Source: Lachnospiraceae bacterium (GTDB taxonomy: Bacteria; Bacillota; Clostridia; Lachnospirales; Lachnospiraceae). From it: a stretch of 64,000 nucleotides of DNA. The notes beneath the pieces are model-generated. The model searched no databases, was not told the origin of the DNA, and saw only the letters and a list, made by a program, of their open reading frames with translations. Each line of letters opens with the position of its first letter. Position 1 is the first letter of the stretch. The translations under genes and the position numbers were made by a program. Below are positions 8,008 to 63,283 of the stretch, one piece after another. The stretch covers positions 62,001 to 126,000 of the forward strand of contig JAUNDG010000001.1 of the NCBI GenBank assembly GCA_030526195.1, given 5' to 3'.

Positions 8008-9372
8008 ATGGATCGTATGTTGCCTGTTTTTTTGCTCGCCTTAATGGCGGTCATGGTCATTTTGCTGATTATCATCCTGGTGTCTGTCAGAAGCCGCCGC
8101 GGTGATCATCACGCGGAAAATGCGTTCGCCCGTCTCGGGGAAAAGATCGACGGATCGGCTGCCCGGGCTGAACGGGAATCCCATGAGCTGCGCCGGGAAA
8201 TGAATGAGGCCTGGCGGGGCAGTATGCAGACCCAGTCTGAGGAGCTACGGCGAATGTCCGACCGGCAGGCGATTTCCCTTCAGGAAATGGCAGAAAAGCA
8301 GGATGAGCGTCTGGCTCAGATGCAGGAAAAGCAGAATCGGGTCACGGAGGCCCTGATCCGCGAAAATGCCGCTCAGCGGGAGGCTATCATTGAGACACTG
8401 ATCACCTCCATCGATAAGCTGCAGACTTCCAACGAAAGACGTCTGAAGGACATTCAGGGCGTGGTGGATGAAAAACTGGATAAGACTTTAAATGAGCGCC
8501 TGGATGCCAATTTTGCCCAGGTGACGGAGCAGCTGGGTCATCTCTATAAGAGTCTCGGCGAGCTTAAAGACCTTTCCGGTGGTGTGCAGGATCTTAATCG
8601 CACCCTGTCCAATGTGAAGACCCGGGGCACCTGGGGTGAGATCCAGCTTGGGCGTATCCTGGCGGAAACCATGAGCCGCAGTCAGTATGATGTCAATGTG
8701 GCCACAAAACGCAATTCCCGGGATCGGGTGGAATTTGCGGTGAAGTTCCCTTCCCAGGATACCGAAGGCGAATGGGTCTATATGCCCATCGATGCCAAGT
8801 TCCCGGCGGATATTTATAACCGTATCGTGGATGCGGCTGCCAATAATGACAAGCCGGCCCTGGAGGCGGCCACAACTGAACTTAAGACCCGTATCAAAAA
8901 TGAGGCGGCGTCTATCGCCACAAAGTATCTGGACCCGCCCCGCACCACCAATTTTGCCTTTATGTACCTGCCCACGGAGGGGCTCTATGCGGAGGTGCTG
9001 CGCATTGACGGGCTGACGGAGGAGTGTCAGCGTCGGGGCGTGATCATCACCGGTCCCACCACCATCACCGCGGTCCTCAATAACCTGCAGGTGGTTTTCC
9101 GTAACCTGGCCCTGTCAAAGAAGAGTGTTGAGGTGATGCGGCTTCTGGAGGCTGTCAAAGCCCAGATCGGCCGTATGGACGCAGCCGTGGAACAGACCCG
9201 AAAGAAGTTGTCTGATGCGGTGACATTGACAGATGACCTTAAGAAACGGACCGCCCGTCTGTCCGGCAAGATGAAATCCCTTGATGACATGGACGAGGTA
9301 ACTGCCGATAACCTGTTGGGCCTGACAGGTCTGACCGATGGCTCGGATCTGACGGACCCGGACGAAATCTAA
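8008..9372 (+). CDS. rmuC: DNA recombination protein RmuC
   Basis: 454 residues from the ATG at 8008; AAAGGAA (7995-8001) supports this start over one 25 codons upstream. There is an N-terminal membrane helix (residues about 5-26), then a long coiled coil (about 35-200), then the conserved RmuC nuclease-like domain (about 215-400) with VKTRGTWGEIQLGRIL and the YMPIDAKFP segment. Escherichia coli RmuC limits inversions between short inverted repeats and is thought to be a PD-(D/E)XK-like nuclease. It lies just before addB and addA, so this is a genome-maintenance block. Own promoter at 7875-7904. Confidence 0.93.
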   Translation: MDRMLPVFLLALMAVMVILLIIILVSVRSRRGDHHAENAFARLGEKIDGSAARAERESHELRREMNEAWRGSMQTQSEELRRMSDRQAISLQEMAEKQDERLAQMQEKQNRVTEALIRENAAQREAIIETLITSIDKLQTSNERRLKDIQGVVDEKLDKTLNERLDANFAQVTEQLGHLYKSLGELKDLSGGVQDLNRTLSNVKTRGTWGEIQLGRILAETMSRSQYDVNVATKRNSRDRVEFAVKFPSQDTEGEWVYMPIDAKFPADIYNRIVDAAANNDKPALEAATTELKTRIKNEAASIATKYLDPPRTTNFAFMYLPTEGLYAEVLRIDGLTEECQRRGVIITGPTTITAVLNNLQVVFRNLALSKKSVEVMRLLEAVKAQIGRMDAAVEQTRKKLSDAVTLTDDLKKRTARLSGKMKSLDDMDEVTADNLLGLTGLTDGSDLTDPDEI

Positions 9373-9435
9373 AACACAGCAACGGTTCCCTTCTGATGGG
9401 CACCGGCCTGCCGAAACCGGCAGTCCGGGAAGCAC

Positions 9436-9480
9436 AAATCGCGAAGCGAACAGTGTAGCCCATCGGGAATGACTCGCGTC
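9436..9480. repeat. dispersed palindromic element, degenerate copy 5
   Basis: GCGAAGCGAACA and a GCCC...GGG centre are recognisable; the right arm is eroded to ACTCGCGTC. The copy ends 29 bases before the addB start. Confidence 0.45.
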
Positions 9481-9508
9481 AATACGACGATAAACAGGAG
9501 GACACGCT

Positions 9509-12500
9509 ATGTCTCTCAAATTGATTTTGGGTAATGCCGGTGCCGGCAAGACCCATGCTGTATTAACCGATATTCTGGCCCGGGCAGCCAAAGCTCCCCG
9601 GGATAACTTCCTGGTGATCGTGCCGGAACAGTTCTCCATGCAGACACAGGATATCCTGACGGCTCTTCATCCGGGCGGGACCATTCTGAACGTGGACGTT
9701 CTGTCCTTTAACAGACTGGCCTACCGTGTGTTTGACGAGGTGGGCTTTAAGACAAGAGCCCTGCTGGAGGATACCGGCAAGGGCTTCGTCCTTCAGAAGA
9801 TCGCCCTGGATCACGAAAAAGAACTGTCGGCTTTGGGAACCCGTCTGCGCAAGCCGGGCTGCATTGAGGAGATGAAATCTGTCCTGTCGGAAATGATGCA
9901 GTATGACATTTCCGTGGAACAGGTGGAAGCCATGGCAGAACTTGATCTGCCGGGAGATTATCTTAAGGCCAAGCTGAAAGATATTGGTCTTATTTACAGA
10001 GAGTTCCGTCATTATCTGGAGGATCGGTTTATTGTGGCCGAGGAGGTGCCGGATATTCTGTGTCGGCTGGTTGAGGACTCCCTGACCTTGCAGGATGCGG
10101 TCATTGTCTTCGACGGTTTTACCGGTTTTACACCGATCCAGATGAAGCTTCTGGGACGCCTCATGTCCATGACACGGGAGATTATTGTGACAGCCGATAT
10201 GGACAAGCGCCCCGATCCCTTCGCCCCCATGCCGGAGGATGATCTTTTCGTGATGACAGGGGACATGCTGAAGGGTTTGAAACGTCTGTGTGATGAGACC
10301 CATACCCCGATCGAACCGGTGACCTGGATCGAACCTCATGATAAGAGCCGTTTTGCCGGGTCTGAGACCCTGTCCTTCCTGGAGGGGCATATTTTCCGCC
10401 GCCATCAGGCATCATCAGAAGCCGTAGAGAATATCAGTCTTCATGCGTACGATGATCCTGCTGCTGAGGCTGAGGGGTGCGCTTTGGAGATCGCCCGTCT
10501 GGTGCGGGAAGAGGGGCTGCGGTATCGCGATATAGCGGTGCTGACCGGTGATATGAAAACCTACGGGACAGCCTTCCGCCGTGTTTTTGCGGAGAAGGAT
10601 ATCCCCTGCTTTATTGATGAGAAGAAAACACTGCTGCGCAATCCCTTCGTGGAATGTGTCCGGGCTGCTCTGGCGGCCTGTGCCGATGGCTACAGCTATG
10701 ACAGTGTGTTCCGTCTGTTGAAAACCGGTATGACAGATATCGAACCGGCCCTCATTAACCAGATGGAAAACTATGTGATGGCGGTGGGCATCCGCGGGAA
10801 AAAATCCTGGCGTGAGCCCTGGCATCGTTTAAGTAAAGAAATCGGCGGTCATCTGCCCATTTTCTCCCTGAAGGAGGCGGATCAGTGTGAACAGACCGCA
10901 GACTTGAAACTGGCCATGGATCGCATGGCCCGCCTCAATAAAGGGCGTGAAGCGGTTATCGCTATTCTGGATCCGTTGTCGGAGGTTCTGGCAGATCGTG
11001 GGGCGGTGGTGCAGGATAAAGCGGCCGCTATTTACCGCTTCTGTGAAGCCCTGAAGTGCCAGGAAAAACTGAAGGCAAAGGAGGATATCTTTGCCGAAGA
11101 AGGCCGGGGTGATCTGGTGGGTGAATACAGCCAGATTTACCGCAAGGTTATGGAAGTACTGGAAAAACTGGTCAGTGTTCTGGGCGATCAGAAACTGTCC
11201 CAGACTGATATTCAGGCTTTGATGGATGGGGCACTGGCGGAATTTAAGCTGGGGCTTATCCCGCTGGGCACCGATCAGGTGATGGTGGGGGATATGGAGC
11301 GCTCTCGCTTAAAGGACATCAAGGTCCTGTTCTTTGTCGGCGTGAATGAGGGCCTGGTCCCGAAGGCACCGGCGGAGGGTGGTCTCTTGTCGGAAATCGA
11401 CAGGGAAGCTCTTGACGGAGCCGGAGTGTCATTGAAGCCCTTACCCAGGAAACAGGTATTCATTCAGAATTTCTATCTGTATCTGGCGCTGACAAAAGCC
11501 TCAGAACGTCTCAATATCTCATTTTCAAAAGGGGACGGAAAGGGCGAAGAACGCCGGCCGGCCTATCTTATCGGCCGGATTTTACGCCTGTTTCCGCAGC
11601 TTGACATCCGCCCGGATGAGCATTCTTTGATCGACCGCATTGAGACAAAAGCGGAAGGGGCGCGCCTTCTGGCGGAGGGCCTTCGTAATCTCCGGACAGG
11701 TGTGCCGGCGGATGACTGGTTCGAGCTGTACAGCCGGATGGGCCGGGATCCTGAGTTTGCGGATCGTCTGGCGCTGATGCTGGAGGCGGCAGCGGGTCGT
11801 CGGCCTGAGGATGCTATTTCACGGGAAGCGGCAAGAGCGCTTTACGGAAGACGGCTGCGCAATTCCGCCACCCGACTGGAACGCTTTGCCGGCTGTGCCT
11901 TTGCGCATTTCGTGCAGTTTGGTCTGCGGCTTCAGGAGCGGGAAACCTTTGAGTTATCCAGTCTTGACCGGGGGAATGTGCTGCACAAGGCTCTGGAGAG
12001 TTTTGGTCGTCGTCTTCAGGCAGAGGGCATTGACTGGAAGAATCTGACGGATGCTAAGGAGCGGGATGCCCTGGCGGAAACCGTGGTGCGGGAGACCTGT
12101 GCGAACCGGGCGATTTATCACGAAAATGCCCGGAATGAGTTTGAAGTGTCCCGACTGGTGCGCCACATGAAGGTGACCGTCTGGGCTATCCAGCAGCAGC
12201 TGGCTGCCGGTGATTTTGAACTGGCAGAGCTGGAAAAGAACTTTGATGATGTGCTGAAGAGTCGCCATTTCCGTCTGCCCGATGGGTCTGAAATGACCAT
12301 CACCGGTGTCATCGACCGTATCGATACCTATGACGAGGGTGATGTGCGGTATATCAAGATTGTTGACTACAAGAGCTCCATGAAGGAGTTTGATTTGAAT
12401 CAGGTGTACCACGGACTGCAGCTGCAGTTGGTGCTTTATATGAATGCGGCCGTTGAGGCGGCTAAGCAGGAAGGGAAGATCCCGGTGGTGGCCGGTATCC

Positions 12501-44654: not shown

Positions 44655-45536
44655 ATGAGAGTGAAAATGAAGATGCGCAAATTTGTCACGTGTTTGATGG
44701 CCACCCTGCTTTTGGCATCAGCTCTGCTTTTGATGAGCTGCGGCAATGCCAAAACGGAGACGAAAGAGGATGTTCCGGTCACTTCAGAAAATGAAGCAGC
44801 GGGTGCCGAAAAGGTGTCTGATAAAGACATTTCCGAGCCCTCCGGCCGCACCAAGATCGGTATTATTGCAGCGCTGTCCTGCGAACTTGAGATCCTCAAG
44901 GAAGCACTGACAGATGACGTGGTGGAGAGTCTGGCGGGGACAGAATTCTACTGTGGCACCATCGGCAACTACGATGTGGTGTTGATGCAGTGCGGTATGG
45001 GTAAGGTCAGTGCCGGCGCCGGCGCGCAGGCGATGATCACGGCCTATAATCCGGATTACATCATCAACACAGGCTGCGCCGGGGCTTTGGCTGAAGAGCT
45101 GGCTGTAGGCGATATTGTGGTGGCGGATAAAACCGTGGAATGGGATCTGGATACGATCGATATCGGGAATCCCAGAGGTTATGTCAGTTCCCTGGATAAG
45201 GTGGAAATGACCGCTGATAAAGATCTGTCCGATAAGATCTGTGCCGTCTTCGATGAAGAAGAAAATGTCATCCGCGGCATGGTGGTTTCCGGTGATCAGT
45301 TTGTGGATAAGCCGGAGCAGCGGGAACTCATTCTGTCAGCATTTCCGGAGGCACTCTGTGCGGAAATGGAAGGTGCGGCCATCGGTCATGTCTGCGAGCA
45401 GAACGGTGTGCCCTTCTGTGTGGTGAGATGCATGTCGGATAATGCCAACGGCGACAGCGGTGTTAACTTTGCGGAATTCTCCGAAATCGCCGGAGAAAAG
45501 TCAGCCTCTTATCTGCTGGCTTTTCTCAACGCCTGA
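44655..45536 (+). CDS. MTA/SAH nucleosidase-like lipoprotein
   Basis: 293 residues. A signal peptide with the lipobox LLMSC (Cys near 30) and an acidic linker precede a complete nucleosidase domain (about 68-293). Catalytic-type residues are visible: the CELEIL segment near 83, AEMEGAAIGHV near 237 and SDNANGD near 261 with the catalytic Asp. Cytoplasmic relatives cleave methylthioadenosine and S-adenosylhomocysteine. Lipidation implies action outside the membrane, perhaps salvage of nucleosides from the surroundings. The GGAGG at 44648-44652 lies very close to ATG 44655; GTG 44661 may be the true start. Confidence 0.85.
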   Translation: MRVKMKMRKFVTCLMATLLLASALLLMSCGNAKTETKEDVPVTSENEAAGAEKVSDKDISEPSGRTKIGIIAALSCELEILKEALTDDVVESLAGTEFYCGTIGNYDVVLMQCGMGKVSAGAGAQAMITAYNPDYIINTGCAGALAEELAVGDIVVADKTVEWDLDTIDIGNPRGYVSSLDKVEMTADKDLSDKICAVFDEEENVIRGMVVSGDQFVDKPEQRELILSAFPEALCAEMEGAAIGHVCEQNGVPFCVVRCMSDNANGDSGVNFAEFSEIAGEKSASYLLAFLNA

Positions 45537-46456: not shown

Positions 46457-46923
46457 GAGGCACCTCCTGAAAGTTGTGCCATCATGTCTTCCATCATAGC
46501 GTAAACATCGTCCTGGACGATGGTCATCACATCGGATGCAGCATTGGCGCTGGTATAATCAATCTGATCAAGGTCTGTCTGAATTTTCTGCCAGGTGCCG
46601 GTGGACAATAATACCCACGTGGCAAAGGTCATAAAGGCCACCGACAGGGCCAGACCGATGGAAGATAAGATGAGGCCGATCTTGGCTGACGTGGCCATCA
46701 GACGGCGACGCGACAGCAGGGCTGCTATGACACCCATGGCACCAAAGAAGAAGGACCCGCCGAAAAACATAAAGATCAGCGAGAAGACACCGAACATGAC
46801 GGAAACCAAAGCCAGGCCTTCTGAGGCGGTCAGGCGTTTGGGCTGTGGCGGTTGATTGAACTTGTCAGGTTCATTGGGCCCGCCGGGCTCATTTTGTGTG
46901 TTTTGATAGAAATTTTCGTTCAT
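46453..46923 (-). CDS. small membrane protein, DUF4190-like
   Basis: 156 residues. A polar, Asn/Gln/Pro-rich N-terminus (residues 1-30) is followed by two membrane helices (about 38-68 and 78-108) and a soluble acidic tail. The plan (proline-rich start, then SEGLALVSVMFGVFSLI and RRRLMATSAKIGLILSSIG) is like DUF4190 proteins. It probably faces the outside with its tail. It precedes and overlaps the DUF975-type gene. Function unknown. Confidence 0.6.
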   Translation of the reverse strand: MNENFYQNTQNEPGGPNEPDKFNQPPQPKRLTASEGLALVSVMFGVFSLIFMFFGGSFFFGAMGVIAALLSRRRLMATSAKIGLILSSIGLALSVAFMTFATWVLLSTGTWQKIQTDLDQIDYTSANAASDVMTIVQDDVYAMMEDMMAQLSGGAS

Positions 46924-47045
46924 ATTTTTTTCTCCTGAAGGGCATTATAGCACACAAAGGACTACCCGTTCGTCACATTTTGCGTTATACTGAACGTGGT
47001 TTTTCGATTTTCATTCGTAAAATAATCGATCCGGAGAGGAAAGTT

Positions 47046-47417
47046 ATGGCTGAAGAAAAAAGCGTGAACAAAGAGAAACCCTTTAAAGTCAGAGCCAGAG
47101 TAACCATCCGAAAAGAAACAAACTTTTTCGGGCCGGGCATTGTGGAACTGATGTCTCTCATCGAGATGACCGGTTCCGTGAAGGAAGCTTGCCGTCAGAT
47201 GGAACTCTCTTATACAAAGGGCTGGTTTATCCTGAACAGAGCAGAGGAGGAACTGGGGTATGCCCTGATCCATCGCAGTCACGGCGGTAAGAGCGGCGGT
47301 GGTGCGTTGCTCACAGAAGAAGGCTCAAAGCTGCTGGATAAATACAATAAGCTTCAGGCTGAAGTTCAGGAATACACAGAACAGGCCTTTGCCCGTCTCT
47401 TCGCGGATGGTGTATAA
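47046..47417 (+). CDS. ModE-type winged helix-turn-helix protein without ligand domain
   Basis: 123 residues from ATG 47046 (GGAGAGGAAAG upstream). The domain FGPGIVELMSLIEMTGSVKE followed by ACRQMELSYTKGWFIL and HRSHGGKSGGGALLTEEG matches the N-terminal LysR-like DNA-binding domain of ModE, the molybdate regulator. The molybdate-binding MOP/TOBE part is absent; the protein ends after one helix. Such short forms occur near molybdenum or formate genes in anaerobes, but the target here is unknown. A strong terminator and repeat copy 11 follow. It lies 1.4 kb from the nitrogenase-like operon. Confidence 0.85.
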   Translation: MAEEKSVNKEKPFKVRARVTIRKETNFFGPGIVELMSLIEMTGSVKEACRQMELSYTKGWFILNRAEEELGYALIHRSHGGKSGGGALLTEEGSKLLDKYNKLQAEVQEYTEQAFARLFADGV

Positions 47418-48452: not shown

Positions 48453-48790
48453 GGCGTGTCCTCACTTTCTGTATGTGGATTACGGTTTGCTCTGCATGGG
48501 TGGCGGTGCCAAATGCCCAATGTCCACGAACCAAAGTGGTCTGACCGGAGGCTCGGAGAAAGGCGTGAGTGTGCCGTATGGATTGCCCAAAATAACGGCT
48601 GCCATGAAAGCGTATCATGGCAGCCGTGAAATGGCAATATTGAAATGACATTGCAATATTGCTGAATATTTGAGGTCGATTTGTGCATTTTTGAACTTGA
48701 AAATGCAATTATATTGCTATATCATGGCGACACGCTCCTGAGGGAGGCCATTCGTTTGACAGCATCGGGCGACGCAACCGCCGTCACTGA
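48453..48790. other. intergenic region between the nitrogenase-like operon and the Uma2 gene
   Basis: 338 bases without a credible gene. It has a 13-base perfect hairpin (48595-48627) and, next to it, GCAATATTG / CAATATTGC palindromes (about 48633-48663). Confidence 0.55.
48595..48627 (-). terminator. terminator of the nitrogenase-like operon
   Basis: ACGGCTGCCATGA and TCATGGCAGCCGT are a perfect 13-base stem with a 7-base loop. On the minus strand it is followed by TATTTTGG, so it may end the operon, although it lies 160 bases past the last stop. Confidence 0.6.
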
Positions 48791-50149
48791 TCAAAGCCTT
48801 GACATGAGGCCGTTCAGCACCTGCTCGGTGAGAAACATGGCGCCGGTATGACCCAGATGTGTTTTCGGGACGATATCGGTGTAGCCCATGCCGGGCAGAC
48901 TGATCTCGATGCCGCAGAAGGGACGGGGCCGGGTTTTCAGAGCAGCGATGGTATTGGCGTTGCCAAAAACAAGTTCAGCTTCTGTCTTGAACATGTCACC
49001 GGTTCGGGGATCTCCGGCCTGATGGGCTGACAACAGGTCATTCAGAGCCTCAATGGTGGTGCTTTCGGCAGCGGCATCGGCCCACTGGTCATCCGTGATG
49101 TCAAGAACATCCGGCACCATCCCCAGATAATCCATAAAGAAGCGGCTGTAGGCCAGGACCACGGAAGCATCGCCTTCAATGGAGAAGCGGGTGCCTCTGG
49201 GGCGACCGCAGATGGCGAACATCTCATTGAGCTTATACCAGCAGATGGCCCGCTTCTTTTCATTATCTGTGATGAAAGCCTGGGCGGGGTTTTCCATCCC
49301 GAGTCGTGAACAGGCCTCCCGGATCAGGGCTTCCGTGGCGGCAAAGCCGATGGGCGGTCCCTCGGGAATCAGGCAGGGTGTACCGCAGCGCTCCCTTAAC
49401 AGGGCAGCGGTGCGAGCACCCATTTCCGGATAGATTACGATGTTGAGGTCGGCTTCGGGCAGACGGCGGATCTCATCAAGGGAACTGCCGGCACACAGGC
49501 AGGTGTTCACGGTGATGCCGGCCAGATCAAAGAGGCGGATGAGCTCGGCTTTATCGCCGTCAATGTAGCGCTGCCACAAAGACAGGCCCAGAAGATTAAC
49601 GGTCGGCCGGTGATCCGTGGTCGTGACTGACTTGCGATCTGTGGCGGCCGGTTTTTCCGGCATCAGAGTCTTAATTAGCTCCAGTGTGGCGGTTTCATAG
49701 CCGGAGGCAAAGGTCTGAGAATAGCCCGGTGACTCCAGCATTAGACAGGGCTTATCCGGCAGATGCGCCGCAATGATGCTTTTCAGATCGTCACCGATAA
49801 GAGAAGCGCCCGGTGAGTTGATGACCGTCAGAAGATCAAAGGGGATGCTCTCCTTGAGATAATCAAGGGCAGCGGCCACTTTATCAGCCGTCCCATAGAC
49901 ATAGTCATGGCGGTCCAGATAGGTGCAGGGGACTCTGACCTGACGGAAGAAGAAGTCGTTCATATTATCAAGGTCCATAAAACGTTGTTTCAGCGGACGG
50001 ACCGTGAGGAATTCTGAGGTGGTGCTATGGTAAAATTTGCAGCCCATGGGGCCGTTCAGCAGGACAACGCTGTGGGCGATGCCCTCCATGGCAAAAACCA
50101 TACCGGTCAGAGAATCAGGAGAAATATTTTTCGAATAATGCGGCATCAT
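48791..50149 (-). CDS. nitrogenase component 1-like subunit (NifK/BchZ-like)
   Basis: 452 residues from the ATG at 50149, 9 bases after AAAGGAGG; the first 35 bases overlap the fusion gene. The N-terminal text [12 protein letters not shown], then [10 protein letters not shown] (Cys37) and [11 protein letters not shown], follows the nitrogenase component-1 beta plan. Only Cys37 of the three usual cluster cysteines remains: the first position is Asp12 and the third is in SPGAS. The fold continues with three Rossmann-like parts to residue 452. It probably forms a heterotetramer with the NifD-like half of the upstream fusion. The substrate is unknown. Confidence 0.85.
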
Positions 50150-52424
50150 GACGCCAATCCTCCTTTCTTCTGTCGGATTCATGCAGCATATCGGCCCAGC
50201 GGCGCAGGATCGGCACGGCGGAACGGAAGCCGGCGGCCGGCACCATGGGCAGCGTGTCTTTGATATAGGGCACATCATCATCCTCGGTGGTGCCGTAGTT
50301 GGACAGCACAAAATCCGGATGATGGGTTTCGATCATGCGGCGGATGGTGGTGGGGCTATAGTCCTCGGACACCAGGGGCTTGCGGTTGTCATTATCCGTG
50401 ATGGTCAGCGGTGTGTGCAGATAGTTAAAGACACCGATCCACACAAAACGCATGCCGGCTTTTTCGGCGGCATCCATCAGCCAGTCCTGATTGACATTGA
50501 TGCTGGTCATCAGGATAGTCTTGCCCTCAAGAGCCGGGCGCAGGGCGACAAGCTCTTCTTCGTAAAGAGCCAGCTGATCGCTGATAAGGGCCAGGGCTTT
50601 ATCTTCACAGTCAAAATGGCGCCCGATCTTACGGAGCCATTCGCCGGTGGCCACCGGTCCGATGGGGAAGCAGGTGTCCATGAAGGTCATGCCGTAATCC
50701 TTTTCCAGCCAGGCCTTCAGTTCAAGACCATCGGCACTGTCGGAATCCAGGATATTCAAAGGCGCAGCCTTAAGATGGCGCAGCTCATCCACGGTACAGT
50801 CACCGGGATACCGGCAGTTGACACGGATATCAAGAGCGGCCAGCAGACCGGACAGAGCCTGGTAATTGAGCTCAAGATTATTGGATACGTTCTTTTCATT
50901 GATGAAGTTGACTAATCGGCCGGCAGGTTTCACTTCACGGTCGATCAGTTTATCACCCAGGGTATGGAGGCACAGACGGATGCCTTCCATGTAATCACCG
51001 GCGATATCACCATCAGCTTCGATGGCGATGACCGGGATATCCGGGGTGGACATGGCTTCAACAGCCTTGAGGTCATCCCCGATGATGCCGCTGACGCAGG
51101 AACTGATGACGATAACAGCGCCGGGCTTCCGGTCAAGGGCCTCTCGGACGGCGGCCTTCAGGCGATCCATACCGCCAAAGACCACATCCTCCTGGTTCAT
51201 ATTCGTGCATTCAAAATGGGGCACGATGGCGGAGGGCATGAGAATCCCGCGGTTAAAGAGATTGCGGCGTCCGGATGAGCTGATGTTCTGCCAGGTATAG
51301 AAGGCGCAGGCCTTCGGGGAATGGGCGATCACCAGTGCATCGGTGATGTGAACAGCCGTTGTGGCAGCACCATTAAAAGCGCAGCCGTAAAGCGGCGGGC
51401 GCTTGGAAAAATCATTGTCATAACGGGAGCAGGCACCGGCGGATTCGCCGGCTGCAACTGATGGGTCAGCTGAAACAGAACCGTCTGTGCATGCAGATGC
51501 CGCAATGTTGTTGGCATCTGCAGAAAGGGCAGAGCCGTCGGTGTTTTCGACTGTGTTCATAGCCGCATCTGTGGCAGCCGTAGCCTTATCAGCAAAAACC
51601 GTGCCCAGCACCACATGTTCCAGGTCCTCATCGGACAGGGGACGCGCCTTGTAAAGTTTTTCATGACCTTCGGCCAGACGCTCCGCATGGGCGGCCAGCC
51701 GGGCGAAAACCATTTTTTCGGGACCGTCTTCAAGTTCGGTGATGGTGCGGTTCAGGGCTTCTGCCCGGGCAAAGGCATTACTGCGGGGGACCTTGACGAT
51801 GATCGGCAGGCCGACAGCATCGGCAAAGCGTTTGACACGGGCATCCTCGTCGTCCACGTTGCGGGCATTATAAACGATGCCGGCCACGCGGCTGTGGGTA
51901 TCACCGTCAAAGTTGCGGATACCCCGGAGGATGTTGTTGGCCGCATAAAGCGCCATATATTCACCGCTGGTGACAAGGAAGACGGCATCGGCATATTCCC
52001 GTCTGACGGGAACGGCAAAACCGCCGCAGACCACGTCCCCCAGGACATCGTAGATGACCAGATCATAGGGATCTTTGGCTGCGTGCTTTTCCATAAACTC
52101 AAAGGCGGAGATGATGCCACGACCGGCACAGCCCACACCGGGCTTCGGGCCGCCGGCTTCGATACAGCCGATGTCAAAGCAGCCTTTCCAGAGCACGTCT
52201 TCAAGACGGGCTTCATTGTCCCGGGTTTCCCGGAGATAATCGAGCACGGTGGGAATGACCCGGCCGTGCATCAGAAGACGGGTGGAATCGTGCTTCGGGT
52301 CGCAGCCGATCTGCATGATCCGTTTGCCGCGGCTGCCAAGAGCGGCGGAAAGATTGGCGCTGACGGTGGACTTACCGATGCCGCCCTTTCCGTAGACCGC
52401 AAATTCAAAAGGTTTTGATTTCAT
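50115..52424 (-). CDS. NifH-NifD-like fusion: reductase joined to nitrogenase component 1-like subunit
   Basis: 769 residues. Residues 1-268 are a NifH/BchL/BchX-type ATPase: P-loop GKGGIGKST (12-20), switch text GCDPKHDST (40-48), and the cluster ligands Cys99 (GVGCAGRG, with the Arg102 of NifH) and Cys133 (DVVCGGF). Residues about 270-335 are an Ala/Ser/Thr/Asp-rich linker. Residues about 340-769 are a NifD/BchN-type subunit with Cys348 (LYGCAFNG), Cys373 ([10 protein letters not shown]) and Cys443 ([11 protein letters not shown]), spaced like the P-cluster ligands of NifD. The FeMo-cofactor Cys and His ligands are not found. AAAGGATTGTTATC precedes the start; it follows the MATE gene by 51 bases. 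Confidence 0.88.
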
Positions 52425-52475
52425 AGGTTTGATAACAATCCTTTCACAGATGTGAACGATAATGGCTGTATCCTG

Positions 52476-53822
52476 TTAGCAGGTCACCGAGGGCCGGGTT
52501 TGCCGGTAAATATAGAAGAAATAGATAACCTCGGCGATGCCGGTGATGGACCAGGAGAAGATATACAACAGGTACAGGGATCCGATCGTATGGAAATGCG
52601 CAAAAATCGTGAAAATCCAGATGATACGGAAAATGCAGCTGCCGATGATGACGATAATGGTGGGCACGATGGTGCGGCCAAGGCCGCGGCTGGCGGCGAT
52701 GGAGCCGTCCATAATGCCGGAGACCGGATAGGAGAAGATCATGATGTTGAGCTTTAAAAGCCCGGCATCGATGACCGCCGGATCGGTGGTAAAAAGCCCG
52801 AGGAACTGACGGCCAAAGAGGCCGACGATGACGCACAGGCCGGCGGATACCGCTACGGAAAGTCCCACACTCCAGAAATAGCTTTTCAGGATACGATCCC
52901 GCTTGCCGGCGCCGTAATTCTGGCTGATGAAGCTGGCACCTGCCACATAAAAGGCGGCCATGACTTCATAGATCAGGTTATCGGCATTTGAGGCGGCCGC
53001 ATTACCTTCCACGATGATGGTGGAGAAGGAATTGACGGCACTGACCACAAAGAGGTTAGCCACCATGAAGACCGCGTTCTGAAAACCGGCCGGGAGGCCC
53101 AGCTTTAATAAGGAAATGGCCTTGGTTTTCTGCAGATGAAGCTCGGAAATGCGCAGGCCGCAGGTCCCTTTTTCTTTCAGCAGCGCCAGGATGATCAGCG
53201 TGGCTGAGACATACTGGGCAATGGCACTGGCCAGGGCCACCCCCACCACATCCAGCTGGCAGGCGATGACAAAAAACAGATTGAGCAGCACATTGACCAC
53301 ACCGGCGGTGGACAGATAAAACAGCGGTTTTTTCGTATTGCCGGTGGCACTGAAGACGGCATGGCCGAGATTGTAAAGGGCCATACCCGGCATACCCATA
53401 AAGTAGATCCGCAGATAGATGAGGGCCCTGTCGTAAAGATCGGGCCGGGTACCCAGAAGCCGCAGAATCGGACCGGACAGGGTGATGCCCAGGATCGTGA
53501 GAACAATGCCCAGAACGGTCATCAGGATAAAGCCGGTATGAATGGTCTCGCAGACATCCGTCTGTCGGGAAGCCCCTAAAAAGCGGGCCGTCAGAGCATT
53601 GACACCGGAGGCCAGACCAATGATAAACATGGTATAAAGAATCACGATCATGGTGGAGGAGCCGACAGCTCCTAAGGCAGCAGGCCCGGCAAAGCGGCCC
53701 ACTACAGCCAGATCGGACAAATTAAAAAGGACCTGAAGCAAATTGGAGCAGATCAGTGGAATGGAAAATGCCACGATCCGCCGGCCAATCGGTCCTTCTG
53801 TCATAGAAACAACAGATGCCAT
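52476..53822 (-). CDS. MATE family efflux transporter
   Basis: 448 residues with 12 predicted membrane helices. The start TEGPIGRRIVAFSIPLICSNL, followed by LQVLFNLSDLAVVGRF, and the second-half repeat LKLGLPAGFQNAVFMVANL are MATE hallmarks. MATE proteins export drugs or metabolites with a sodium or proton gradient. It is the first gene of the minus-strand operon, 51 bases before the NifH-NifD fusion, so it may export a substrate or product of that enzyme, but unrelated function is possible. The promoter region carries a palindrome shared with the divergent lipoprotein gene. Confidence 0.93.
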   Translation of the reverse strand: MASVVSMTEGPIGRRIVAFSIPLICSNLLQVLFNLSDLAVVGRFAGPAALGAVGSSTMIVILYTMFIIGLASGVNALTARFLGASRQTDVCETIHTGFILMTVLGIVLTILGITLSGPILRLLGTRPDLYDRALIYLRIYFMGMPGMALYNLGHAVFSATGNTKKPLFYLSTAGVVNVLLNLFFVIACQLDVVGVALASAIAQYVSATLIILALLKEKGTCGLRISELHLQKTKAISLLKLGLPAGFQNAVFMVANLFVVSAVNSFSTIIVEGNAAASNADNLIYEVMAAFYVAGASFISQNYGAGKRDRILKSYFWSVGLSVAVSAGLCVIVGLFGRQFLGLFTTDPAVIDAGLLKLNIMIFSYPVSGIMDGSIAASRGLGRTIVPTIIVIIGSCIFRIIWIFTIFAHFHTIGSLYLLYIFSWSITGIAEVIYFFYIYRQTRPSVTC

Positions 53823-54296: not shown

Positions 54297-54308
54297 GGGG
54301 TGGAGGAG

Positions 54309-55301
54309 ATGAACGAAACCGCATTTTATTATGCCCCCATGGAGGGCATCACCAATCATTGTTATCGCCGGCTGCATCACAAGCATTTTCCCGGTATCGA
54401 TAAGTATTTTATGCCCTTTATGGCCCCTCATTTAAAAGGTCACATCAAGAATAAGGAAAAGAATGATATTTTCCCGGGGAATAATGAGGCACTGACAGCG
54501 GTGCCGCAGATTCTCACCAACGACGCGGAGAGTTTTATCATCACCGCACGTATGCTGAAGGATCTGGGGTATCCGGAGGTGAATCTTAACCTGGGCTGTC
54601 CGTCTCCGACGGTGGTAACAAAGGGCAAGGGCTCCGGCTTTTTAGCCTATCCGGAAAAACTGGATGTTTTTCTGGAGACCATCTTTAATGCGTTGGAAGG
54701 CGAGATCGCCATTTCCGTCAAAACACGTTTGGGTATGACTGATCCGGCGGAGGCGGAGGTAATCTTTCCGCTGTATGAGAAATATCCGCTGGAGGAGCTG
54801 ATCATTCATCCCCGGACTCAGAAGGATTTCTATAAGAACACACCAAACCGGGAGATGTTCAAAACATTGGCGGAGAAGAGTCGTCACAAGATCTGTTATA
54901 ACGGCAATCTTTATACAGAAGAGGACTGCCGGACGCTCCTTGAGGAGGTGCCGGTGTGTCAGAATCTGATGCTGGGGCGGGGGCTTCTCCGAAATCCGGC
55001 GCTAGTGCGGAAAATGAAGGGTGGCCGTGATCTTAACATGGCTGATTTCAGAGCCTTTCATGATGAGGTCTATGAGGCTTATCGGGAACTCTATGACGGC
55101 CCATCGGCGATTCTTGGTCACATGAAGGAACTGTGGGTCTATATGGAATCTATGCTGACCGCAGAGCCCCGGGATGTGAAGGCGGTGCGGAAGGCCCGGA
55201 AGCTCCCGGAGTATGAGCTGGCGGTGCGTCATATCTTTAACGGCAGTGAGATTGTCAGTGTGGGCGATCAGCCCAGAGAAACGGAAGCTGTGAAACTGTA
55301 A
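54309..55301 (+). CDS. dus: tRNA-dihydrouridine synthase
   Basis: 330 residues from ATG 54309 (AAGGGG 8 bases upstream; GTG 54300 is less likely). FMN-binding TIM barrel: YYAPMEGITNHCYR at the start, the catalytic loop NLNLGCPSPTV with the active Cys near 98, KTRLGM near 139, and IIHPRTQKDFY near 165. It reduces uridines in tRNA with NADPH. It starts 12 bases after the lipoprotein stop, so the two are likely co-transcribed. The prophage-like element begins within about 110 bases of its 3' end. Confidence 0.93.
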   Translation: MNETAFYYAPMEGITNHCYRRLHHKHFPGIDKYFMPFMAPHLKGHIKNKEKNDIFPGNNEALTAVPQILTNDAESFIITARMLKDLGYPEVNLNLGCPSPTVVTKGKGSGFLAYPEKLDVFLETIFNALEGEIAISVKTRLGMTDPAEAEVIFPLYEKYPLEELIIHPRTQKDFYKNTPNREMFKTLAEKSRHKICYNGNLYTEEDCRTLLEEVPVCQNLMLGRGLLRNPALVRKMKGGRDLNMADFRAFHDEVYEAYRELYDGPSAILGHMKELWVYMESMLTAEPRDVKAVRKARKLPEYELAVRHIFNGSEIVSVGDQPRETEAVKL

Positions 55302-55412: not shown

Positions 55413-56903
55413 TCAAGCATTGTAATTGAAATCCGACTGCCTACCACCTCTCTTGAGGTGGTAGGTTTTTTCATTGAGAGAACTAAGGTTGTAGGCTATG
55501 GTGACCTTAAAGTGGTCATCTTCTTCATCCCAGACCGTGACAGAGTTCACGAACAGGTTCACCAGCAGTCTGCGGAAGTCATCATCCTCAATATCCCCGC
55601 CCTTGAACTGTTCCAGCCAGAAGATGACCTGTTCCTTATCCAGGTAGATGACCTTCTTTTCTTCCCGCTTGAGTTCTTCTTCAAGGGTCTTTTTGTCCTT
55701 CTCCAACTCCGCCATACGCTTCACCAGCGTTTCCGGGGCAAGTCCGCTTTCAATGGCCTTGACTATGTTGGTGAGGGAAAGGGTTGTTTCCCGGAGTCTA
55801 TCTTTGATGGCAGGAATATCCGTGCTGTCCTCCACGTCATGGAGGTTGGTACGGATAGCTACCTCTGCAATCTGTTCTATATTTTCGTCCGTGAGCAGTG
55901 ACATTGCGTCACGGATTACAACATCCTCTATGAAGTCTTGTCGGAGGTTCCGCTTCTGACAGTCTACATGGAGGTTTTTCTTTCCATAGCACTCATAATA
56001 AGTATAGCCGGACGTGGTGTTGCTGCTGGCGTTCATCTTGGAACCGCAGTGGCCGCAGTACAGCTTGCCGGAGAGCAGGTAGAAGTGCTTGGCCTTATGC
56101 TGGCCGGAAGCCTTGCTATTTGACTTCATGCGGGCTTGCACCTGGTAGAATAGCTTCTTGTCGATGATAGCAGGTATAGCGTCCTCTGCCCGGTAGTCAT
56201 GGTACTGGTACACACCGATGTACCGCTCATTGTGGAACATTCTGCTGAAAGAACTCTTTCCGAACCGTGTACCCTTGGCCGTCTTATACCCACGGGCATT
56301 GAACAGGCGGCATATCTCCGCAACACTATGACCCTCTGCGTACATTTCAAAAGCCTGCCGGACGATGGGAGCCGTTTCTTCATCAATGACCAGCTTCTTA
56401 CCTTCCGACTTGTAGCCCAGAGGGATGACCCCGCCGATGGAGTTGTGCTTATAGGCAGACTCCTTCATGCCACGGTTGATTTTCTGGGAGAGTTCTGCGC
56501 TGTAAAACTCTGCCATGCCCTCAAGCACGGACTCAAGGATGATACCTTCCGGGTCATTGGAAATGTTCTCTGTGGCAGAAATAAGCTGTACGCCGTTCTT
56601 CCGCAGGCGGTATTTGTAGTTGGCGCTGTCATAGCGGGAGCGGGCAAACCTGTCCAGCTTATAGACGATGACAGCTTGGAAGGACTTCTTTTCGGAGTCC
56701 TTTATCATGCGTAGGAACTCCACACGCTTCTCAATATCCTTGCTGGCCGATGTAGCCCGGTCTGCGTATATCTCTCTGATACGGAACCCGTGGCGCTGGC
56801 AGAAGTCTGTGCAGACACGTATCTGTCCCTCAATGGACTGTTCTGTCTGGTTGGCACTGGAATAGCGCACATACAGGGCTACGTCCTTAATATCTTCATA
56901 CAT
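55413..56903 (-). CDS. large serine recombinase (integrase)
   Basis: 496 residues. The N-terminal catalytic domain has LYVRYSSANQTEQSIEGQ with the nucleophile Ser near 15, and VYKLDRFARSRYDSA near 80. A recombinase domain follows (about 160-260, GYKSEGKKLVIDEE), then a zinc ribbon (CGHCGSK near 310 and a later Cys pair), and a long coiled coil near 370-425 as in phage integrases. It catalyses integration and excision between attP and attB. It is transcribed toward the host, with AGGAAGAACC as ribosome site. It marks the left end of the element. Confidence 0.93.
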   Translation of the reverse strand: MYEDIKDVALYVRYSSANQTEQSIEGQIRVCTDFCQRHGFRIREIYADRATSASKDIEKRVEFLRMIKDSEKKSFQAVIVYKLDRFARSRYDSANYKYRLRKNGVQLISATENISNDPEGIILESVLEGMAEFYSAELSQKINRGMKESAYKHNSIGGVIPLGYKSEGKKLVIDEETAPIVRQAFEMYAEGHSVAEICRLFNARGYKTAKGTRFGKSSFSRMFHNERYIGVYQYHDYRAEDAIPAIIDKKLFYQVQARMKSNSKASGQHKAKHFYLLSGKLYCGHCGSKMNASSNTTSGYTYYECYGKKNLHVDCQKRNLRQDFIEDVVIRDAMSLLTDENIEQIAEVAIRTNLHDVEDSTDIPAIKDRLRETTLSLTNIVKAIESGLAPETLVKRMAELEKDKKTLEEELKREEKKVIYLDKEQVIFWLEQFKGGDIEDDDFRRLLVNLFVNSVTVWDEEDDHFKVTIAYNLSSLNEKTYHLKRGGRQSDFNYNA

Positions 56904-56930
56904 GGTTCTTCCTCCATTCAGTGAAATCTA

Positions 56931-57290
56931 TTATCCGGCACTTACGGTTGCCCCTTTTCCAGCGCTATCCATTTCATTCATACAGACCTGGATAATGCGG
57001 AAGCGGCCTTGGGCGGTGGCGGTACGGTAAGCGTTAAGCAGCAGTTCTTCTTCCGGGGTTAGTGAAATCCCTAACTGCTGTACCTCTTTCACGTCTGACA
57101 GGCAAAAGAGGTAGTCCGCAGACACGTTAAAATACCGTGCCAACTTCAATATGTAGTCCGCACTGGGTAGGTATTCCCGCTTTTTCCACTTACTAAAGCT
57201 GCCATTCGACAATCCAGCGGCCTTTTCCACGGCCTGATTACTAAGTCCACTCTCCTTAACAAGTTCAAAAATCCTATCTACGGTATCCAT
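56931..57290 (-). CDS. XRE family repressor (CI-like)
   Basis: 119 residues from the ATG at 57290, which follows CAGGGAGGG; longer frames upstream are not supported. The helix-turn-helix is SNQAVEKAAGLSNGSFSKWK, then the conserved LPSADYILKLARYFNVSADY and an end DV. No protease or ligand domain follows. Divergent from the early genes, with two operator-like repeats in the promoter between them, it is the likely lysogeny repressor. Confidence 0.85.
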   Translation of the reverse strand: MDTVDRIFELVKESGLSNQAVEKAAGLSNGSFSKWKKREYLPSADYILKLARYFNVSADYLFCLSDVKEVQQLGISLTPEEELLLNAYRTATAQGRFRIIQVCMNEMDSAGKGATVSAG

Positions 57291-57313
57291 AGAAAACCCT
57301 CCCTGAAAAATAT

Positions 57314-57366
57314 TTTGGGAAATCTCTAAATTTAGTATTGACAGTTTGGGATTTCTCGAATATAAT
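57314..57366 (+). promoter_or_regulatory. early promoter with two operator-like repeats
   Basis: TTGACA (57338-57343) and TATAAT (57361-57366), 17-base spacer: a perfect consensus promoter. The sequence TTTGGGAAATCTC (57314-57326) recurs as TTTGGGATTTCTC (57345-57357), the second copy inside the spacer. A repressor bound there would shut the promoter. Confidence 0.8.
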
Positions 57367-57371
57367 AGGGA

Positions 57372-57392
57372 CTGTAAACAAGAGTTGTTTAC
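57372..57392. repeat. inverted repeat downstream of the early promoter
   Basis: TGTAAACAA and TTGTTTACA are perfect complements around GAG, starting a few bases after the -10 box. It could be an additional operator or a 5' hairpin. Confidence 0.6.
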
Positions 57393-57442
57393 AAAACAGG
57401 GCGCAAGAAACCCGCCCACCGTGGCGGTAATTTTTAGCCCCG

Positions 57443-57497
57443 GTAGGTTGTCAATGCTATATGAGTGTCGCAACTTCATTATAAGCATTGAAACCTA
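57443..57497. other. long imperfect hairpin in the early leader
   Basis: GTAGGTTGTCAATGCTATA (57443-57461) is nearly complementary to 57480-57497, giving about 17 pairs with few mismatches and an 18-base loop. It lies 50 bases before the first early gene; termination or leader regulation is possible. Confidence 0.5.
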
Positions 57498-61307: not shown

Positions 61308-63283
61308 TAGAAAACACATTCATATTCGACTGTGAGGTTTTCGCCCATGACTGGCTGTTCGTGTTCAAGGAGTTATCCACCGGGCAGTACACAGTTATCC
61401 ACAATGACAATGACGCTGTTCTGGCGTTCATGGAGCAAGACCCCTTCCTGGGCGGGTTCAACAATAAGCACTATGACAACCACATTCTCAAGGCAGTCAT
61501 GGTTGGGTTGACCCCGGAACAGGTCAAGGAAGTCAATGACCTTATCATTGTGGAGGAAATAGACGGCTGGGATATTCCCCTGCTGCGTGACTACAGAGTA
61601 TTCTTCCATAGCTTTGACCTGATGGATGACTGTCAGGACGGCACTTCCTTGAAGGGAATTGAAGCCCACCTGGGTATCCCCATTGAGGAAACGGAAGTAG
61701 ACTTCAACATCACGCGCCGCCTAACCCAAGAGGAACTGGCACAGACCATCGCCTACTGTAAGTATGACGTGGACGCTACTGAAATCCTCTACAAAATCAG
61801 GGTGAATTACCTCAAGAACAAGGCTACTCTGGGCAGAGTCAGAGGGTTGGATGAACGCAAGGCTATGTATATGACCAACGCGAAGCTGACCTCTGTGTAT
61901 CTGCAAGCCCAGAAGCCAAGTACCCCGTGGGCAGATGAACGGAACTATCAGTACCCGGATAAGCTGCTGCGTGAGTACATCCCGCAGGAGGTCTTTGACT
62001 TCTTTGACCGCCTGCATGACCCCGCTGTGAAGGACATTGACCTTTTCGGAGGTTATGACGAACACGGCAAAAAGATTAAAGGCGCAAGCCTTGAAATCAT
62101 GGTTGGTGAGTGTCCCTGCACCATCGCCTACGGCGGTATCCACGGTGCAATTCCCACCTATACCGAAGAAGCCACGGACACCCGCTCCATTCGCAATAAG
62201 GACGTGGCAAGCTACTACCCGCACCTGATGACCATACCGTTGTCAAAGGGTCAGAAGTACGGATTTTGTAGCCGTAACATTCCTTCTCCTGAGGTCTTTG
62301 TACAGACTCTTGAGGACAGAGTTAAGGCTAAGAAGTCTGGTGACAAGGACACGGCAAACGCGCTCAAGCTGGTACTGAATACCACCTACGGTACGATGCT
62401 GAACGGCAAGAACGGCGTTGCCTACAATGACCTCTATGACCCGTTGATGGGGCGGTCAGTGTGCATTACTGGACAGTTGCTTCTGCTGGAACTGTCCGTA
62501 CACCTTACCCGTGAGTGTCCCACTCTGAAAATCATCCAGCTTAACACAGACGGCATCATGGTGAGTTTCGACAACTCCGATGAAGCTAAGTGGCAGGAGA
62601 TTACCCAGGAGTGGCAGGACAGGACAGGGTTTGAACTGGAAGAAGATTTCATCCAGAAGATTGTTCAGAAGGACGTAAACAACTACGTGGAAATCCCCGT
62701 AGGCGGCGGCAAGCCGAAGGTTAAGGGCGGTCAGCTTGTCAGAGGTATTCTGACCAACGCCAACATGGACTTTACGGAAATGGGACTCCCGGCATGGGAC
62801 AACATGAGTGGCGGTGCTTTCAACATCAACAATAACGCTGTGGTCATCGCAAGAGCAATCCAGCAGTTCTTTGTGGATGGAACACCCCCGGAGGATACCA
62901 TTGCTGCCACTGACAACATTCTGGACTTCCAGTTGATTTCCAAAGTAGGCGGTAAATACTCCACCTGCTTCCAGGTGATAGGGGAAGAAAAAATCCCTGT
63001 CCAGAAGGTCAACCGCGTTTACGCCACGGCAGACCTGAACTGTGGAACGCTCTACAAGACCCATGCGGTAACTGGTGCAGACTCCAAAGTTCCCAGCTTA
63101 CCCAAACACTGCATCGTGGACAACAACAATCGCTTGTCTATTGATGTGGTAGACCGCAAGTGGTATTTGAAGCAGGCGCAGAAGTACATCAATGACTTTA
63201 TGGGCGTAAAGCCCCCGCGCAAGAATACCCGTAAAATCAATACCATCAAGAAAAAGACGATGGCATTATTAGAAAATCTCTAA
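61304..63283 (+). CDS. phage family B-like DNA polymerase with exonuclease domain
   Basis: 659 residues from TTG 61304, overlapping the upstream frame (AGGGAGGA before it). Proofreading motifs: FDCEVF (Exo I), FNNKHYDNH (Exo II) and YCKYDVDAT (Exo III). Polymerase motifs: A is DVASYYPHLM near 305, B is KLVLNTTYG near 350, and C is QLNTDGI near 415, with Asn where the first Asp of the usual DTD stands. It is shorter than most family B enzymes and resembles polymerases of Clostridial phages. It probably replicates the element. Confidence 0.88.
   Translation: MIENTFIFDCEVFAHDWLFVFKELSTGQYTVIHNDNDAVLAFMEQDPFLGGFNNKHYDNHILKAVMVGLTPEQVKEVNDLIIVEEIDGWDIPLLRDYRVFFHSFDLMDDCQDGTSLKGIEAHLGIPIEETEVDFNITRRLTQEELAQTIAYCKYDVDATEILYKIRVNYLKNKATLGRVRGLDERKAMYMTNAKLTSVYLQAQKPSTPWADERNYQYPDKLLREYIPQEVFDFFDRLHDPAVKDIDLFGGYDEHGKKIKGASLEIMVGECPCTIAYGGIHGAIPTYTEEATDTRSIRNKDVASYYPHLMTIPLSKGQKYGFCSRNIPSPEVFVQTLEDRVKAKKSGDKDTANALKLVLNTTYGTMLNGKNGVAYNDLYDPLMGRSVCITGQLLLLELSVHLTRECPTLKIIQLNTDGIMVSFDNSDEAKWQEITQEWQDRTGFELEEDFIQKIVQKDVNNYVEIPVGGGKPKVKGGQLVRGILTNANMDFTEMGLPAWDNMSGGAFNINNNAVVIARAIQQFFVDGTPPEDTIAATDNILDFQLISKVGGKYSTCFQVIGEEKIPVQKVNRVYATADLNCGTLYKTHAVTGADSKVPSLPKHCIVDNNNRLSIDVVDRKWYLKQAQKYINDFMGVKPPRKNTRKINTIKKKTMALLENL

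Follow-up and report, generated by a model that had tools for sequence, protein, structure and literature searches.

A NifH–NifD fusion gene with a NifK-type partner in a Lachnospiraceae genome: a candidate nitrogenase-like enzyme with a tethered reductase

We analyzed a 64,000-nucleotide stretch of DNA (the window; positions 62,001 to 126,000 of contig JAUNDG010000001.1, assembly GCA_030526195.1) from a Lachnospiraceae bacterium, which carries on its minus strand a gene fusing a NifH-type reductase to a NifD-type subunit, followed by a gene for a NifK-type subunit. The fusion gene (50115..52424) encodes 769 amino acids from an ATG at 52424, and the motif AAAGGA (52444-52439) is located 14 bases 5′ of this start. 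As an earlier reading of the letters alone (the sequence-only reading) had claimed, both halves lie in one stop-free frame, and Pfam models matched the two domains nearly end to end: the reductase domain (H; residues 8-272, 51609..52403) matched Fer4_NifH at 1.4e-89, and the NifD/E-type domain (D; residues 348-747, 50184..51383) matched Oxidored_nitro at 5.2e-65. Between them lies a linker of 69 residues (residues 275-343, 51396..51602). The longest frame of the NifK/N-type gene (K) spans 48791-50311 (506 aa) and is open back to a TTG at 50311; the start common to most relatives is an ATG at 50149, with AAGGAGG (50165-50159) nine bases before it, inside the fusion gene. From this ATG the gene (48791..50149, minus strand) encodes 452 aa with an Oxidored_nitro match of 5e-45. 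With ATG 50149 taken as the K start, the two genes therefore overlap by 35 bases (50115..50149), as had been proposed, and the ribosome-binding site of K falls within the fusion gene; we infer that the two genes are translationally coupled. H, D, and K all scored above the Pfam gathering scores, which places the operon in the nitrogenase-like superfamily (NifH-type ATPase with PF00148 subunits).

A search for the same fused architecture elsewhere found it again in gut anaerobes: of 49 loci, the window included, 44 encode H and D in a single frame (32 of 34 loci in the first contig scan, 4 of 4 and 7 of 10 further loci, and the window itself). The fusion is therefore no assembly accident, and an assembly artefact was rejected as its explanation. 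The 49 loci include some dependent ones: L135 is apparently a copy of L043, and L032/L033, L051/L052, and L117/L118 are close pairs. The first 34 related loci came mostly from metagenome-assembled genomes of rumen and gut Clostridia, with one such genome labelled Eggerthellaceae. K followed the fusion in loci whose contig continues. Of 42 operons, 33 had the 35-base overlap, and seven of the remaining nine have a start at 32 or 38. The architecture was retained at identities to the window down to 40%. K was also used as a query (E 1e-40; 1e-30 for the phylum); counting the window's own genome every time, it had matches in 3 of 42 genomes at genus level, 7 of 397 at family level, 5 of 391 at class level, and 5 of 398 at phylum level. 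The fusion family is patchy, yet it extends across several classes of gut and rumen anaerobes. No viral copy was confirmed among 324 pattern matches.

Incomplete copies were also observed. L064 and L140 begin within D at a contig end, and L138 consists only of a D fragment and a shortened K. L065 and L133 have H and D split between two frames that overlap near the linker, which may reflect an assembly error, a natural frameshift, or separate genes. The operon of L055 (Lachnospiraceae bacterium TWA4) looks broken, with an H frame from residue 55 and K in two frames. Fragments, broken frames, and split H and D of this kind (L138, L055, L065, L133), as well as occurrence in only 3 of 42 congeners, would suit a dead or domesticated remnant devoid of reductase activity. 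We consider such a remnant highly improbable, since the cluster cysteines were invariant and the ATP-binding residues conserved over 39 sequences down to 40% identity.

Conserved residues were read from alignments of 39 D and 35 K rows, with near-duplicates and shortened copies left out. The P-loop of H reads GKGGIGKST, and its lysines were conserved in every row covering them. The presumed [4Fe-4S] ligands of H, C99 (52130-52128) and C133 (52028-52026), were each Cys in 39 of 39 rows, and one stretch of 13 residues was invariant across the 39 fusions. The linker of the same fusions varied from 33 to 89 residues (median 41) and was rich in A, E, P, and S. Order-promoting residues made up 17% of it vs. 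37.5% of the domains; its composition is of low complexity and looks disordered, with no motif visible.

Three cysteines of D, C348 (51383-51381), C373 (51308-51306), and C443 (51098-51096), were Cys in all 39 rows and share columns with three P-cluster cysteines of NifD and MarD. K had a single invariant cysteine, C91 of the 506-aa frame (50041-50039), in the NifK Cys95 column (35 of 35); the NifK Cys70 column was occupied by Asp (18 of 18 in one alignment, 23 of 23 covering rows in another) and the NifK Cys153 column by Pro (35 of 35). Instead of the six P-cluster cysteines of nitrogenase, the fusion family has three in D and one in K. The ligands of the FeMo-cofactor were absent at the aligned positions, with Cys in 0 of 39 D domains in the NifD Cys275 column and His in 0 of 18 fusion rows in the NifD His442 column. 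Neither were those of the MarD cluster (Cys270 and His429) found: Cys occupied the respective column in 0 of 39 rows, and no His was common except H368, the only one present in at least 35 of the 39 D domains. The pattern of three D cysteines and one K cysteine fits one [4Fe-4S] cluster at the D/K interface and, judged from alignment columns alone, is compatible with the single [4Fe-4S] cluster of dark-operative protochlorophyllide oxidoreductase (DPOR) and chlorophyllide oxidoreductase (COR). Another cysteine of D, C537 (50816-50814), was Cys in 38 of 39 rows. Less strictly conserved cysteines of K were C264 (30 of 35 rows, but replaced by Ala in the window), C270 (19 of 35), and C273 (27 of 35); like C537 of D, they are situated around a VN(C) turn, a feature shared by the two paralogous subunits.

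Phylogenies of both halves, as advised by the sequence-only reading, placed the fusion outside the clades of Nif, methylthio-alkane reductase (Mar) with Group IV, and BchN/BchB, in trees that held no named rows for isethionate reductase (Isr), Nfa, COR, or Cfb and in which Mar was represented by Rhodospirillum rubrum MarD and close relatives (e.g., L086, 436 bits to R. rubrum MarD). In a D/K tree of 119 rows, fusion D and fusion K each formed one clade on a long stem (support of 100 each in the Shimodaira–Hasegawa-like approximate likelihood ratio test, SH-aLRT), and the BchN and BchB rows lay outside both. A careful 24-row D tree resolved separate clades for the fusion (100/100), Mar with Group IV (98/98), Nif (100/100), and a group of operons linked to ATP-binding cassette (ABC) transporters (98/95). 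Fusion D therefore belongs to none of the latter three; its sister position in this tree was an open fork. The fusion H set formed its own clade in the H tree (99/99), and H, D, and K all lay apart from the ABC-linked group. In a quick 48-row D/K tree with a mixture model, the fusion K clade again had a support of 100; fusion D grouped with Nif and fusion K with part of the ABC-linked set, each at 84. NCBIfam models of the Bch proteins scored below their cut-offs (BchL, 206 of 345 bits; BchX, 195 of 331; BchB, 97 of 490). The best model for the H half was CfbC with 309 bits (cut-off of 402), CfbD yielded 44 bits (cut-off of 268), and the best of the component-1 models for the D half was NifE with 141 bits, far below its cut-off of 505.

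The score of D with NifE would suit a NifEN-like scaffold, which matures or reduces a metal center or metallocofactor for another enzyme with no turnover of a free metabolite, a function of the kind that Dos Santos et al. (2012) put forward for groups of nitrogenase-like proteins (PMC3464626). Nevertheless, we regard a scaffold as improbable: no conserved client or maturation gene stands beside the operon, the family lacks the L-cluster cysteine, and a search for NifB at E 1e-20 was negative in 11 of 14 fusion genomes (G538 and G636 left out of this test), that of the window included. Control genomes carrying Nif or Mar (G099, G134) were positive in the same search. The sequence-only reading had noted the absence of nifB and nifE/N from the window. 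In the genome to which the window belongs (2.54 Mb, 96% complete), the searches likewise found no NifB at E 1e-20 and, besides the fusion and K, nothing else resembling NifH or component 1; therefore, the tethered H is the only reductase known in it. Another fusion genome (G058, locus L045) additionally has a separate 277-aa NifH-type gene beside a 551-aa component-1-like gene (L105), and this NifH-type protein is deep-branching in the H tree.

Fused genes of this type have been mentioned in print. Dos Santos et al. reported, in one sentence with data not shown, fused nifH-nifE genes followed by a nifN-like gene in some Firmicutes, Archaea, and Deltaproteobacteria (PMC3464626), and a table published in 2014 names a 'fused nifH/nifE' gene in Ca. 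Methanomassiliicoccus intestinalis (PMC4153887). The window locus is a member of this architecture. The group of 2012 had the same fusion and gene order, a likeness drawn from its description, as no sequences are shown there; the section concerned gives no ligand, clade, or neighbor analysis of the fusion itself (PMC3464626). No archaeal or deltaproteobacterial copy was reached by our searches, and no work on the function of the fusion was found in open-licence full texts, a scope outside which most subscription papers fall. The fusion architecture, noted in 2012 and 2014, is accordingly less novel than the sequence-only reading implied.

DPOR (BchL-BchN-BchB) and COR (BchX-BchY-BchZ) resemble the fusion in having three cluster cysteines in the subunit equivalent to D. 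COR contains an all-Cys [4Fe-4S] cluster and is not known to have a FeMo-type cofactor. In DPOR the cluster has three Cys ligands and one Asp ligand (PMC11423573), and a FeMo-type cofactor is lacking (PMC12552129); the NifK Cys95 column is Asp in the BchB row and Cys in the fusion. Unlike in the fusion, the reductase of both systems is a separate protein, and the Bch models score far below cut-off with it. MarHDK shares the superfamily and the H-D-K composition, but it has six P-cluster cysteines, Cys270 and His429 for the [Fe8S9C] cluster, and the partner MarB (PMC12552129), while the fusion keeps four of the six P-cluster cysteine positions and not Cys270. CfbCD of F430 biosynthesis, whose CfbC is the best H model, has no K partner for CfbD (PMC11423573), whereas the fusion has one. 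In Isr, one conserved cluster cysteine is located in D and three in K (PMC11423573), the opposite of the three and one in the fusion.

The ABC-linked group (e.g., plasmid pTS1 of Treponema saccharophilum, L088) contains NifH proteins among the most similar free-standing ones, with about 50% identity. Its D subunits have the three cysteines of the fusion, and L088 and L068 also have one K cysteine and Pro in the NifK Cys153 column; in L070 and L080, unlike in the fusion, the K cysteine is missing. Furthermore, H, D, and K of this group are separate genes beside an importer annotated as an iron ABC transporter. The substrate-binding and permease proteins of the L088 importer, used as queries, had no match among genes of 47 fusion loci, and its ATPase matched eight general ABC ATPases in six of these loci. 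Within the ABC-linked group, L084 has an 812-aa frame after H (8354-10789, plus strand), about the length of two component-1 genes and possibly a D-K fusion.

To our knowledge, characterized members of the superfamily have a separate reductase that docks and leaves. Substrate aside, we consider it moderately probable, judging from the sequences, that the operon encodes an ATP-driven, [4Fe-4S]-only two-component reductase with a tethered reductase. Its subunits would assemble as (HD)2K2, in which the two H domains would dimerize around one [4Fe-4S] cluster, bind ATP, and dock on D/K. In each cycle the H dimer would pass one electron to the [4Fe-4S] cluster at the D/K interface, and the electron would proceed to a substrate that itself occupies the cavity equivalent to the FeMoco site of nitrogenase; no FeMo-type or [Fe8S9C] cluster would be present in D/K. 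The tether would hold the reductase to the catalyst in a 1:1 ratio, with two H per D2K2, and would keep its local concentration high. The canonical complex, when fully loaded, has four H per D2K2. We propose as plausible that the covalent tether alters the docking cycle. Natural tethering of H to D, retained at identities as low as 40%, could help to show whether the reductase must undock for every electron and what number of reductases a D2K2 particle requires. The fusion might even represent a distinct functional class: the tether would take the place of the free reductase, one H dimer would alternate between the two D/K halves of the particle it belongs to, and the substrate (tetrapyrrole, corrinoid, or other) would be outside the range of the characterized relatives. 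We regard this extension as doubtful.

For the substrate class, our first guess is a tetrapyrrole or corrinoid, the likeliest candidate though a tentative one, because tetrapyrroles are the substrates of DPOR, COR, and CfbCD, the relatives with [4Fe-4S] clusters only. The cobalamin gene cbiG was present in 13 of 16 fusion genomes vs. 111 of 391 genomes in the class sample. Comparison of these 16 genomes, taken from several samples, with the 386 class genomes lacking the fusion gave p 2e-5, and the class sample's own fusion genomes all had CbiG (5 of 5, p 0.002). A role of the fusion as a replacement for CbiJ in cobalamin synthesis was rejected, since CbiJ was encoded in 14 of 16 fusion genomes.

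Several points weigh against a [4Fe-4S]-only reductase or against a tetrapyrrole substrate. Within the window's family, CbiG was found in 7 of 9 vs. 7 of 15 genomes (p 0.14), so lineage may explain the co-occurrence with cobalamin synthesis; CbiG adjoins the operon in 1 of 37 loci (L050), and the tetrapyrrole guess has little genomic support. NifB-like genes occurred in 3 of the 14 fusion genomes (G651, G1017, G1122), one of them over the cut-off. Beside the His442 column, Cys was present at residue 728 in 6 of 39 fusions, and six residues past this column, His was present at residue 734 in 9 of 39. The invariant Asp66 of K and the near-invariant C537 of D suggest that there may be room for other cluster chemistry. 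The His ligand of MarD was overlooked by sequence analysis prior to the structure (PMC12552129); the absence of a ligand from an alignment is therefore no proof. Isr, with an incomplete set of P-cluster cysteines, acts on isethionate (PMC11423573), and thus the type of cluster does not fix the substrate. Biochemistry of the fusion was not found in open-licence full texts.

A sulfur compound, as for Mar and Isr, is the next likely substrate class, and although we rate it as rather unlikely, it is kept alive by cysteine synthase genes beside the operon (flanking genes were called in this analysis). The fusion would in this case be a sulfur-assimilation reductase that cleaves a sulfur-containing substrate in the manner of Mar or Isr, the freed sulfur going to cysteine synthase. 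In L048 and L063, the operon has a cysteine synthase gene as its immediate neighbor (scores above the cysK cut-off), which in L063 overlaps K by 4 bases; a close homologue adjoins the operon in L061, and a fragment at the contig end is located three genes off in L039. CysK-like neighbors thus occurred in 4 of 47 loci of three lineages (L048 and L063 are sisters), and no CysK was found in the stretch examined at the other 43. Among 518 flank genes, p was 0.015 for the three CysK-like genes adjacent to the operon and 0.036 for all four within three genes of it, values that rest on four genes and on loci not all independent. In one small clade (L032, L033, and L036), a gene for a LysR regulator overlaps the fusion or lies next to it; for L033 and L036, the best models of this LysR all scored below cut-off, among them YeiE and a regulator of selenium metabolism, in line with a sulfur-related role. 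The relatives Mar and Isr do release sulfur compounds (PMC12552129, PMC11423573). However, searches with the NifB model found no NifB/MarB-type partner in the 11 genomes mentioned, and Dos Santos et al. tied cysteine synthase neighbors to proteins that keep Cys275 (PMC3464626), which the fusion family does not. The cysteine synthase neighborhood is a lead, not proof.

Across the family, no conserved neighbor was found besides H-D and K: when 112 neighboring proteins, chosen from a list of 163, were tallied, no protein family occurred in more than five. In the window, a MATE-family exporter (Pfam MatE; 52476..53822, minus strand) is encoded upstream, 51 bases from the fusion gene. Counting the window, a MATE gene adjoins the operon in 3 of 37 loci, and the two MATE proteins from elsewhere are only weakly similar to the window's; further MATE genes lie farther from the operon in six loci. 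A partnership with the exporter was rejected on this count, and the MATE protein is probably not functionally linked to the fusion. The proposal of the sequence-only reading is supported as regards a genuine fusion of H with D in a nitrogenase-like reductase of gut anaerobes, but not as regards the exporter.

Downstream of K, a consensus scan identified a terminator-like hairpin of 13 pairs (48595..48627, minus strand); five such sites were found in the region vs. 7.1 expected, so this evidence is weak. Past the next gene downstream of K, a protein with a ModE-like DNA-binding domain is encoded at 46896-47417 (plus strand; 63 bits, below the curated cut-off of 98.5), which qualifies the earlier statement that the window has no molybdenum genes. 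A phosphorylase-superfamily protein (Pfam PNP_UDP_1; 44655-45536, plus strand) has a lipoprotein-like signal by eye, odd for a cytosolic family. On the other side of the operon, serine-recombinase-like and repressor-like genes were recognized by eye at 55413-57488 (minus strand), next to a Dus-like gene (54300-55301); these genes may lie at the border of a mobile element, some 2 kb away from the MATE gene.

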